Source: a virus. From it: a stretch of DNA of 44,624 bases. Every line of letters starts with the position of its first letter. The stretch's first letter is position 1. The DNA lies in the IMG/VR virus record IMGVR_UViG_3300032134_000005, positions 1 to 44,624 of that record, one strand, 5' to 3'. Shown here piece by piece: positions 8,993 to 14,553 of the stretch. The translations under genes were made by a program, and so were the position numbers. The notes under the pieces were generated by a model. The model worked only from the letters and a program-made list of their open reading frames with translations, made no database searches and was not told the DNA's origin.

Positions 8993-9622
8993 CTAAGCTG
9001 ATTCTGAACCGATAGAGTCACCTGAGTCATACAGCATCCAACCCGTAGCTATATACTTGTCGGTTGTGTACACAGGGTTACCACGGTGTGTGTGAGTGAA
9101 AGAGCCGGGGAAGATGACAAGCGTTCCTTTCTTAGGTTGGCATCTGTAACCTTGATATAAGAACTCAGTCTCACCCTCACCTTCTGGAACATCATTAAGG
9201 TACAACAGGTACGTCAACGCTCGACGAGCAAGCGTATAGTTCTCACCTGATTGCTCCCAGTGAAAGGCGTAGTAGCCCCCTTGCTTCTTATGTGAATACT
9301 TCTGTACTTTAAAGTCGTGCGAGTGGAGCTTACAGCTCCGATGCATACCGAACTGCTTCATATAACTTGTTACAGCTTTCTCGATACCCGTATAGAAGCG
9401 GGTAGTCAGGTCATCATGTAACTCTTTGATGTCGTCAGGCCAAGTCGGAATGGTCTTGTCAAAGAAATGTGCAACATCTCTCCGTATACTCATGTCGGAA
9501 TGGTCATGGTTAGCCTTCTCGTCCTCAGAAAGCCCGAAGGCTTTCATCTTTTCAAAGGCATCAATCACTTCATCACAGAAGGTTTCATCATAAATGTCTT
9601 CATATAAATTAATAAACTGCAT
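8993..9622 (-). CDS. 2OG-Fe(II) oxygenase, prolyl 4-hydroxylase-like
   Basis: A 209-aa enzyme of the non-haem iron, 2-oxoglutarate-dependent superfamily. Visible motifs: GGYYAFHWEQ (first metal His with an acidic partner, HxE instead of the usual HxD), RRALTYLLYLNDVPEGEGET, GTLVIFPGSFTHTHRGNPV (distal His) and KYIATGW (2-oxoglutarate-binding basic residue). This is the order found in prolyl hydroxylase-like proteins of phages. It overlaps the stop of the chaperone-like gene upstream by 14 bases and sits at the end of the collagen-like fibre block. A fibre residue is an attractive substrate, but nucleic acid or host targets remain possible. Confidence 0.88.
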   Translation of the reverse strand: MQFINLYEDIYDETFCDEVIDAFEKMKAFGLSEDEKANHDHSDMSIRRDVAHFFDKTIPTWPDDIKELHDDLTTRFYTGIEKAVTSYMKQFGMHRSCKLHSHDFKVQKYSHKKQGGYYAFHWEQSGENYTLARRALTYLLYLNDVPEGEGETEFLYQGYRCQPKKGTLVIFPGSFTHTHRGNPVYTTDKYIATGWMLYDSGDSIGSESA

Positions 9623-10040
9623 GTAATGCTTGCATCCTGTCTGTTTCCTCTTGAGTCGGCTCTTCTTCTACAGGGCTAAGCATCCATTCAGGCGCTTGAG
9701 GTAGAGTTGGGAACCGAGTAGGAACATAAATTGTTGGGAAGTCTCGTAAGGATTGACGGTAGGTTAAGAGAGAGTCGTAGTCTTCATCTGTTAAGTTGTT
9801 ACGCTCAAGATGTTTAGTAACTAGCCAATCACTTTGGCCTAGCCAGAAGTCACGTTGCTCACGTACCTGTTCGATAGTTTGTATCGGAGGTAGCCAGCCC
9901 TGCACTTCGTCATATCTGTGATGTAAGGCAGCGTGTTCGCCATCTTTCTTCCAGTTACTAGGAGGCGCTACACCTTCTTCTAAGCTGAACATACCGTGTA
10001 CGGCATAGCCTTTCTCATCGACTTCATAATAAAAGTCCAT
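9609..10040 (-). CDS. tail fibre assembly chaperone-like protein
   Basis: A 143-aa protein whose centre, VREQRDFWLGQSDWLVTKHL, continues with SLLTYRQSLRDFP. This matches the helix-turn pattern of phage tail assembly chaperones (RxxRDxxLxxSDW, then YRQxLRDxP). The N-terminal 55 residues resemble the binding part of such chaperones. It would assist folding or trimerisation of the neighbouring glycine-rich fibre tip. The ATG follows AAGGAGTAACGT. It lies four bases after the glycine-rich gene and overlaps the oxygenase gene. Confidence 0.8.
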   Translation of the reverse strand: MDFYYEVDEKGYAVHGMFSLEEGVAPPSNWKKDGEHAALHHRYDEVQGWLPPIQTIEQVREQRDFWLGQSDWLVTKHLERNNLTDEDYDSLLTYRQSLRDFPTIYVPTRFPTLPQAPEWMLSPVEEEPTQEETDRMQALHAVY

Positions 10041-10043
10041 ACG

Positions 10044-11719: not shown

Positions 11720-11731
11720 AGTGACCTCCTG

Positions 11732-13018
11732 TTATGTGGTTATGTAGAGAGTTGTACCAACCTTGCTAAAGACAGCGCCAAAGAGTGCGTCTGACTCTGC
11801 CTTGGTATAGGTATCTGCAACATTAAACGTGGTGAGTCCTTCAATGAGCACAGTGGAACCTCCTGCCGTGCTTGTATTCAAGGTGATGCTTGCCCCATTG
11901 ACTGCTGTGTAGTCTGTAGCATCCAAGCGAACACCGTTTAAGTAGACAGATACATAACCAACATCATAGGAACCGAAGAAGGTGGTCTGCCCTGCTGATG
12001 AAGTGTGCTCTGTAATTTGAGAGAAGTTAGCAGCAGATGCGCCTTGAGGACCCGCAGGACCTGTAGAGCCTGTTGGACCCGTGCTGCCTGTAGCGCCATG
12101 CGAACCAGCCGCACCAGTATTACCTGTCAATCCAGTTGGGCCTGAAGGACCTTGTGAACCCGTACTACCAGCAGGACCTGTATCACCTTGAGGACCAGTA
12201 GGTCCTTGGCTACCATTTGTGCCTTGACTACCAGTTAAACCAGTATCACCTTGTGGACCTGTAGAACCAGTAGGGCCTTGAGCACCGTCACTACCGCTTG
12301 CGCCTGAGACACCTTGAGAACCAGTGTTGCCAGTGTCGCCTTGAGGACCTTGTGGGCCTGTGCTGCCAGTAGGACCTGTAGGACCAGTGTTGCCTACGGG
12401 ACCTTGTGGACCTGTCGAACCTGTATCACCGTCTGAGCCAGTTGAGCCAGTTGAACCCGTAGGACCTGTGTTGCCTGTAGGACCTTGAGGTCCAGTGTTA
12501 CCTGTGTCGCCATCAGCACCTGTAGCTCCTGTTGAGCCTATCGGACCAGTGTTGCCTGTAGCGCCCTGTGGACCCATATCACCTTCGTCACCTTGTGGAC
12601 CTTGAGGACCAGTAGACCCTGTAGGACCTGTGCTGCCTGTAGGACCTTGTGGGCCTGTAGCGCCTGTATCACCATCAGCACCTGTAGAACCTGTAGGACC
12701 TGTAGGTCCAGTGTTGCCTACTGGGCCTTGGGAACCAGTGTCACCTTGAGAACCTTGAGGGCCTACTGCACCTGTTGTGCCTGAGACACCTTGAGGGCCA
12801 GTGTTACCCATTACGCCTGTTGTGCCTGTGTCGCCTTTCTCAGCGATGAGTTGCCACACGGTAGGTTGTGCCGATGGTACTGTACCAGCAGCCGAGTTTT
12901 GAATAGCAGCGTAAGTGCTGCCGTTGTACTTAACAGCGTCGAAAGTTTCATACGCTGTCGAAGAAGACCAGTTGCCTTTGAGGGCAAAGCGTATCTTGCC
13001 TATATTTAAAGTGGGCAT
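11732..13018 (-). CDS. collagen-like tail fibre protein, distal
   Basis: A 428-aa protein in three parts. Residues 1-62 ([20 protein letters not shown], then [17 protein letters not shown]) match the carbohydrate-binding-like GxW/YxxxDxVxYxGxxY pattern found at the start of phage collagen proteins. Residues about 65-325 are uninterrupted Gly-X-Y triplets dominated by GPQ, GPT and GST, with Pro mostly in X and Thr or Gln in Y. Residues about 330-428 form a fibre tip with [19 protein letters not shown], a common tail-fibre strand motif. It overlaps the preceding fibre gene by one base (TAATG). A trimeric rod is expected. Confidence 0.85.
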
Positions 13019-14553
13019 TAGATTGTTATCTCCAGTTCACCGTTAGAATTTATATTGAAGTCTTGGTCGTTGGCGCTACCGTAATAGTCTACCGATAGCA
13101 TTCCCGTTACGGGGTCCATGCTGAAACGTCCAAAGGCTAGGCCTAAAGAAGTGGGACCTTGAGGCCCTTCACTACCTACAGAACCTTGAGGACCTAAAGG
13201 ACCTTGGTCACCATCAGGTCCTTTATTACCGAGGTCACCTTGAATACCTTGTGGACCGATTGGGCCTACAGGACCTGTAAATCCGATAGGGCCTTGCGCA
13301 CCTATAGGACCAAGAGGACCGTCATTACCTGTAGGACCTTGTGACCCAGTATCACCTGTACTGCCTTTGACACCCGTAGAACCTGTAGGGCCAATGGGAC
13401 CAGCATCACCTATAGGGCCTTGGTCACCTGTAGAACCTGTAAATCCGATAGGGCCTTGAGGTCCAGCGGGACCAAGCGGACCATCGTTGCCTGTGGGACC
13501 TTGCGAACCTGTGTCACCTGTACTGCCTTTGACACCTGTAGAACCTGTCGGGCCCACTGGTCCAGCATCACCTTCAGGTCCTTGGGAACCTGTGGCTCCT
13601 GTTGGGCCTTGCGTACCTGTAGGACCTGTGGGACCCATAGGGCCGTCACCACCTTCAGGGCCTTGGTCACCTGTAGAACCTGTGAATCCAATAGGGCCTT
13701 GGTCGCCAATGACGCCTTGGATACCTGTCGGGCCTACGGGACCTGTCTCACCTGTGACACCTTGGATACCTGTGACACCTTGGTCACCTGTAGCACCTGT
13801 ATTGCCAAGTTCGCCTTGAGGACCTCTTGGACCTTCGGGGCCTATAACACCTTGAGGACCATCGGGACCTTGAGGACCAGTTGAACCAGCAGGGCCTGTA
13901 CCACCAACGGGGCCTTGAGGACCTTCGGATAGGCTGAATGTAAGCTCACCTGTGTTGACATCGTAGTTAACAGAACCTGTGGAACCGTAGGGTAGAGAGG
14001 TTAGATGAGTTGTTAAGCCATAGAGTTCGTCACGAATCTGCGTAACGTCAGTGGCTTTAATGATTACTTCAGTATGCTTGGTTACTATGTCCGTGTGTCG
14101 TGTTTCAGAATCAGCACGAACACTGTCTGCATACTTCTTGGACACAGCATCTGTATCGGAAACAGGATCAGCAAGATCGGAAAGAACCCTACCTTTAACA
14201 GAGAAAGCTCCAGACGATACATCTTCATAGACACCTAACTGAGACTGATCGACAGCTTCTTGAGAGAGTTTATGGATCTGCTCGAAAGCTGTATCAAGAT
14301 CCTCTTCCGTTAACTGTCCGGGCAAAACGAAGTCTACTAACCGTTGCTCTGGAGAAGTCTCTCGGAAAATATAAATACGGTCAGCAGGTGCCGCCGTTAA
14401 GAGTTGAATTTGAGTGTCAGATGTCCAGCTAAAAGAGTCGACCAGTTCACCATTAACCTTTACTTTGACATGAGATTTATCAAGGTAATCGAAAGGTACA
14501 GTGAATTGTGATTGAGATGTTTCAGCGAGATACGACACATAAGAGTAAGCCAT
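13018..14553 (-). CDS. tail fibre: T7 gp17-type N-terminus plus collagen-like rod
   Basis: A 511-aa protein. Residues 1-150 match the T7 gp17 N-terminal domain that docks to the tail ([20 protein letters not shown], then [20 protein letters not shown]). A helical linker (residues 135-180) leads to Gly-X-Y triplets from about residue 210 to 465, and a short C-terminal tip follows. The collagen part contains a 54-aa unit repeated in tandem ([20 protein letters not shown] occurs twice), seen in DNA as 162-base units at 13279-13440 and 13441-13602. T7 gp17 has no collagen rod, so this is a chimera. GGAGTCCTT precedes the ATG. Confidence 0.9.
13279..13602. repeat. two tandem 162-base units in the fibre gene
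   Basis: The words AAATCCGATAGGGCCTTG recur at 13279 and 13441, and the sequence following each stays alike for 162 bases (54 codons), with scattered third-position changes. A related start (GAATCCAATAGGGCC) occurs near 13684. Unequal recombination could lengthen or shorten the collagen rod in whole triplets without shifting the frame. Confidence 0.75.

Follow-up and report, generated by a model that had tools for sequence, protein, structure and literature searches.

Two tandem collagen-like fiber genes and a gene for a predicted 2-oxoglutarate (2OG)-Fe(II) oxygenase of prolyl-hydroxylase type occur in one block of the IMG/VR virus record IMGVR_UViG_3300032134_000005, raising the question of what the oxygenase modifies. 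The window, i.e. the whole stretch of DNA analyzed (44,624 nucleotides), is a 44.6-kb record with T7-like gene content, including a T7-type RNA polymerase, primase-helicase, DNA polymerase, portal, capsid, tube, nozzle, internal virion protein, and terminase. A first-pass annotation had read the block as a dedicated modification system for the collagen-like fibers. Comparison with related loci displaces collagen dedication as the leading idea. Membership of the oxygenase in a cassette with a glycine-rich fiber tip and a tail-fiber assembly chaperone is well supported, and the reading favored here, with a chance judged just short of even, is that the oxygenase serves this modular receptor-binding cassette as an accessory enzyme.

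Every gene of the fiber/oxygenase locus is on the minus strand. In order of transcription these are fiber 1, fiber 2, a 151-aa gene, a fiber-assembly-like gene, the glycine-rich tip, the chaperone, the oxygenase, a 75-aa gene, a holin, and the small and large terminase. The description of tandem Gly-X-Y fibers in one block with a prolyl-hydroxylase-type oxygenase was borne out, with 86 and 89 triplets in the two fibers and the oxygenase downstream on the same strand. Four genes that the first-pass annotation did not distinguish separate the fibers from the oxygenase, namely those for the 151-aa protein (11264-11719), a 121-aa tail-fiber-assembly-like protein (10886-11251), the tip (10044-10886), and the chaperone (9609-10040).

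Fiber 1 (13018-14553, minus strand) contains an N-terminal T7-type tail-attachment domain (Phage_T7_tail, PF03906, 4e-24) followed by a collagen-like shaft (PF01391, 127 bits), which identifies it as a T7-type fiber. Its 86 Gly-X-Y triplets (13150-13923, residues 211-468) carry Pro at X in 40 cases and at Y in none. Fiber 2 (11732-13018, minus strand) has a short N-domain, a collagen-like shaft (PF01391, 143 bits), and a small C-terminal domain; its 89 triplets (12035-12835, residues 62-328) include 31 with Pro at X, none with Pro at Y, and no Lys. Both runs are unbroken and both Pfam Collagen matches are far over chance. Pro was already described as lying mainly at X with few Y sites, and the counts are even more one-sided, with X occupied in 71/175 triplets and Y in 0/175, such that the shafts offer no X-Pro-Gly substrate site for a prolyl 4-hydroxylase. 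Lys occurs at Y in 3 of 175 triplets. Similarity to fiber 1 was found in 1572 phage records, chiefly Klebsiella, Mycobacterium, and Escherichia phages. Shaft length changes fast, as the tandem collagen fibers of the related loci L083 (10001-13734) and L084 have 149 and 157 unbroken triplets, nearly double those of the window, despite a terminase 95.5% identical to the window's.

The oxygenase gene (8993-9622, minus strand) encodes 209 aa with a match to PF13640 (1.3e-13; 52 bits against a cut-off of 27) and to PHROG 61. Among solved sequences, the closest matches are prolyl 4-hydroxylases of bacteria, including that of Bacillus anthracis (phmmer E 1.8e-6). An AlphaFold model with a predicted local distance difference test score (pLDDT) of 86 gave as top Foldseek matches the chlorella-virus collagen prolyl hydroxylase, the Pseudomonas putida prolyl hydroxylase, and human PHD2 (E 1e-9 to 1e-8), placing the protein in the 2OG-Fe(II) double-stranded beta-helix fold of the prolyl 4-hydroxylase/PHD type. 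The catalytic residues H121-x-E123 and H179 and the 2OG-binding K189, assigned by alignment, are invariant across 38 aligned relatives, and the putative acidic iron ligand is Glu (HxE, not HxD) in all 38 phage oxygenases. Ratios of nonsynonymous to synonymous substitution rates of 0.08-0.10 (window versus L002-L005) represent purifying selection, suggesting that the gene is maintained. These results support assignment of the oxygenase to the prolyl-hydroxylase type and to the fiber locus, and the enzyme looks functional, with a predicted intact active site. Matches to the family were confined to 329 cyanophage, pelagiphage, and marine virus records. A bacterial origin was considered and rejected; a genome scan gave one 32% relative, in a gammaproteobacterial metagenome-assembled genome.

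In order to establish whether the oxygenase follows collagen, related loci were compared. The closest relatives of the window by terminase, L083 and L084 (protein identity 95.5%, DNA identity about 84%), contain two tandem collagen fibers without an oxygenase, two other genes replacing the tip, chaperone, and oxygenase. Two collagen fibers without an oxygenase are likewise present in L090 and in L092, and the cultured Roseobacter autographiviruses CRP-125 and CRP-114 encode two collagen fibers followed by a Phage_tail_APC gene, also without an oxygenase. Whole-record searches with PF13640 and a phage oxygenase profile found none in L083, L084, L090, L092, CRP-114, or CRP-125. Conversely, oxygenases about 50% identical to that of the window are encoded in L007, L013, and L014, where no collagen was found. 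The related records are mostly incomplete: the fiber side is truncated in L011 and L013, L014 is a short contig, and the missing collagen of L011, which ends 1.3 kb upstream, is not counted as evidence. The cleanest collagen-free case is L007, which encodes a 954-aa non-collagen fiber with a T7-like tail N-terminus together with a glycine-rich tip, chaperone, and oxygenase.

The wider family gave a similar picture. The collagen model matched 9 of 50 whole oxygenase records, comprising three close kin of the window, four records of the L006/L008 group, L015, and S-PRM1, in which the collagen is ~38 kb away from the oxygenase. Collagen lay within 5 kb of the oxygenase in 3/81 oxygenase clusters. 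Furthermore, the fraction of triplets with Pro at X in window-type loci was about 0.34-0.47 with the oxygenase and 0.30-0.46 without it, Pro at Y was zero in all compared shafts with or without the oxygenase, and the L008-type shaft carries Pro at X in only about 8% of triplets with the oxygenase still kept. The X/Y composition of the collagens shows no response to the presence of the oxygenase. The co-occurrence comparison that had been suggested for the two families therefore gave the outcome named beforehand as refuting a dedicated system, since across phage records the two are not consistently paired and each is found without the other. Of the earlier interpretation, the enzyme type, its functional appearance, and its place in the fiber locus stand, while its dedication to collagen does not.

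The constant partners of the oxygenase are the tip and the chaperone. In the window the tip, a probable receptor-binding protein, matches the glycine-rich distal domain PF21722 (4e-12), and the adjoining chaperone gene matches Phage_tail_APC (PF16778, 8e-7; PHROG 8716) and overlaps the start of the oxygenase by 14 nt. A subclade of oxygenases at least 48% identical to the window's comprised 13 records in six independent clusters. The PF16778 chaperone was found within a few genes of the oxygenase in 13/13 records, and a glycine-rich tip protein or domain was present in 6/6 clusters, with PF21722 over the cut-off in five and just under it in L011. The gene order was tip-chaperone-oxygenase in the window, L007, L011, and L014, tip-oxygenase-chaperone in L006 and L008, and oxygenase-tip-chaperone in L013; the three genes remain neighbors despite differing gene order, fibers, and phage backbones.

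As a background chosen independently of the oxygenase, IMG/VR was scanned with a DNA pattern for the chaperone motif YRQxLRDLP; of the earlier routes to a chaperone sample, a single-protein search gave the same four contigs and a chaperone alignment was too diverse. Among the matches listed, 72 usable loci included a glycine-rich tip in 10, collagen in 10, and an oxygenase in one (L201, the L008 record). The tip count includes L201 as an addition by hand, its tip being part of the collagen fiber protein. Against these background values of 10/72, the tip was enriched beside the oxygenase (6/6 clusters; binomial p = 7e-6) and collagen was not (2/6 clusters; p = 0.20), both values assuming independent clusters and both being weakened by shared ancestry. 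In the 81 clusters of the wider family, the chaperone was also enriched beside the oxygenase (10/158 adjacent open reading frames (ORFs) versus 6/713 distant ones, p = 9e-5).

Several observations weigh against the cassette reading. The oxygenase is missing from 9/10 chaperone loci with a glycine-rich tip among the matches listed, and L092 contains a glycine-rich tip without an oxygenase. More distant oxygenases (about 40% identity and below) mostly lack a glycine-rich neighbor, the clusters are only six with shared ancestry, and the structure model of the tip (pLDDT 55) is too weak to place residues. The proposition that tip and chaperone always imply the oxygenase is refuted, the oxygenase occurring in 1/10 of the listed glycine-rich loci, and the oxygenase is therefore an optional third member. 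The best Foldseek matches of the weak tip model include the Pam3 fiber 7ypx (E 2e-3). The Asn content of tips was about twofold higher with the oxygenase (8.8 versus 4.6%, p = 0.002) and the difference persisted after G+C adjustment, in a comparison of 6 (window, L007, L008, L011, L013, and L014) versus 10 related sequences with 11 residues tested. As a clue to a target residue, this enrichment would be only a hint.

The block is exchanged between lineages. A stretch of 2466 nt (window 8360-10803, minus strand), spanning the tip, chaperone, oxygenase, 75-aa gene, and holin, is 92.2% identical in DNA between the window and L004, although the terminase proteins of the two are only about 40% identical. 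L083 and L084, conversely, share the terminase type of the window and not its tip, chaperone, or oxygenase. Synonymous divergence from L004 is uneven within the block, at 0.03 for the chaperone, 0.11 for the tip, and 0.24 for the oxygenase, and because of this variation the block has probably recombined more than once. The pattern resembles the familiar modular swapping of receptor-binding parts, the oxygenase lying within the module. The tip forms the C-terminus of fiber 2 in L004 and L005 and has a gene of its own in the window; the fused tip/collagen fibers lie at L005 1367-3217 and L004 7420-9576, and the window has two extra ORFs between. Shaft and tip have here been either split apart or joined in nature.

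Since the enzyme goes with the tip and chaperone and not with collagen, its target may be the tip or the host instead of collagen. On the favored reading of an accessory enzyme of the receptor-binding cassette, the tip is the inferred substrate, and the collagen-like proteins are probably ordinary, unmodified shafts onto which the tip happens to be mounted. A more specific proposal, which we put forward tentatively and at clearly less than even confidence, is a hydroxylated phage adhesin, in which a dedicated phage hydroxylase, exchanged between phages along with the glycine-rich tip, modifies the tip post-translationally while the chaperone assists assembly. On the favored reading, by analogy with Pam3 gp25 on gp24, the chaperone would hold the unfolded tip during assembly. 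The oxygenase, its gene overlapping that of the chaperone, would then hydroxylate one or more residues of the chaperone-held tip before it closes, and hydroxylation may change tip stability or receptor binding.

Alternative substrates were weighed against this proposal. A host target, in which the oxygenase would hydroxylate a host protein or surface receptor and be linked to the tip as a co-exchanged host-range gene, is rather doubtful on balance and is nonetheless a serious rival because a related bacterial enzyme, the Pseudomonas prolyl hydroxylase recovered by Foldseek, was crystallized in complex with EF-Tu. The behavior of the block as an exchangeable host-range cassette and the absence of the oxygenase from most listed tip and chaperone loci are also consistent with a host target. 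However, a start that overlaps the chaperone gene and a place among late structural genes just before holin and terminase fit virion assembly better than an early take-over, and enrichment beside fiber chaperones extends to the wider oxygenase family. Quite unlikely is a general phage moron, i.e. one of the many aquatic-phage 2OG oxygenases, with small molecules, nucleic acid, or 2OG levels as its target and placed at a permissive site beside the fiber genes. The wider family is abundant at many loci in cyanophages (within the 329 records), with members beside ribonucleotide reductase in S-H38 and beside CP12 in P-RSM4, and its members are commonly interpreted as auxiliary metabolic genes; in S-SCSM1 there are 24 such oxygenases, whose viral functions were not investigated (PMC9602691). 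The subclade of the window, however, is not scattered, all six clusters lying beside a glycine-rich tip and chaperone.

Modification of the collagen shafts themselves is also given a low probability. The oxygenase would in this case act on Pro at X (GPT, GPQ, GPV) or another shaft residue and would stabilize the triple helix. Fibers and oxygenase are in the same operon, the chlorella-virus collagen prolyl hydroxylase is among the nearest solved folds, and 4-hydroxyproline (Hyp) at X can stabilize Gly-Hyp-Thr peptides. The B. anthracis enzyme hydroxylates X as well as Y prolines with Y favored (PMC8968730), and mimivirus pairs collagens with hydroxylases (PMC9546862). These points are opposed by the two-fiber collagen layouts without a PF13640 gene (L083/L084, L090, L092, CRP-114, and CRP-125), the collagen-free oxygenase relatives (L007, L013, and L014), the Pro-poor L008-type shaft, and the likeness of shaft composition with and without the oxygenase, Pro at Y being absent throughout the window's shafts.

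2OG-Fe(II) oxygenases are common in aquatic phages and functionally unassigned. Linking one subclade to a host-binding tip and its chaperone provides a concrete substrate hypothesis with small, testable constructs and takes away a tempting assumption, namely that a prolyl hydroxylase is required for the collagens of phages. Hydroxylation of the tip, if it takes place, would make host recognition by the phage rely on a modification that requires oxygen and 2-oxoglutarate.

Other features of the window were also noted. The 151-aa protein between fiber 2 and the tip had no match in Pfam or PHROG, and ~40 of its N-terminal residues are similar to a 208-aa gene at the equivalent place in L083. The following 121-aa protein matched PHROG 4912 (tail fiber assembly, 7.6e-9). 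A terminator-like hairpin lies immediately upstream of fiber 1 (14579-14600, minus strand), with the overall terminator scan at chance level; promoter and terminator scans gave a signal at or below chance level, and an Rfam search gave no match. The T7-type RNA polymerase spans two adjacent minus-strand ORFs (41717-43036 and 43048-44328), which carry RPOL_N and RNA_pol parts, are separated by an 11-nt gap, and have a separate start codon; the enzyme may be split or its gene broken. The T7-like phage window also encodes a tyrosine integrase (253-1494, minus strand), a GP88-like protein (3660-4520), ThyX, PhoH, and both ribonucleotide reductase subunits.

The locus was compared with several known systems. 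In the cyanophage Pam3, folding of the fiber gp24 is aided by the chaperone gp25, which embraces the glycine-rich distal portion of the fiber, and loops of the gp24 distal domain are the proposed receptor-binding sites (PMC9608196). The glycine-rich tip gene of the window similarly adjoins a tail-fiber assembly chaperone gene. Unlike the Pam3 pair, which was compared for gp24/gp25 only, the window tip occurs with collagen shafts in a T7-like phage and with an oxygenase as third member. CRP-114 and CRP-125 share with the window a T7-like genome and tandem collagen fibers followed by Phage_tail_APC, small genes, and terminase, but lack the glycine-rich tip and the oxygenase. Mimivirus has collagens together with prolyl and lysyl hydroxylases (PMC9546862), so the pairing of collagen-like proteins with a collagen-hydroxylase-like enzyme in a virus was already known; in the phage lineage, unlike in mimivirus, the oxygenase does not track collagen, and the shafts have no Pro at Y and hardly any Lys. 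In the part of the literature searched, no paper was found on phage collagen hydroxylation or on an oxygenase-modified phage fiber. The prolyl 4-hydroxylase of B. anthracis acts on collagen-like peptides (PMC8968730), and the window oxygenase shares the double-stranded beta-helix fold and the 2OG-binding lysine with this enzyme (5hv0), the PBCV-1 hydroxylase (5c5t), and the P. putida enzyme (4iw3), but differs from them in the HxE iron motif found throughout the phage family and is 14-19% identical to them in structural alignments. The cyanophage 2OG-Fe(II) oxygenases of PHROG 61 belong to the same family as the window's (about 30-40% identity), and that of S-PRM1 (IMG/VR copy) shares its invariant residues. 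Unlike the window subclade, which stays with a glycine-rich tip, the cyanophage copies occur at many loci and often away from fiber tips.

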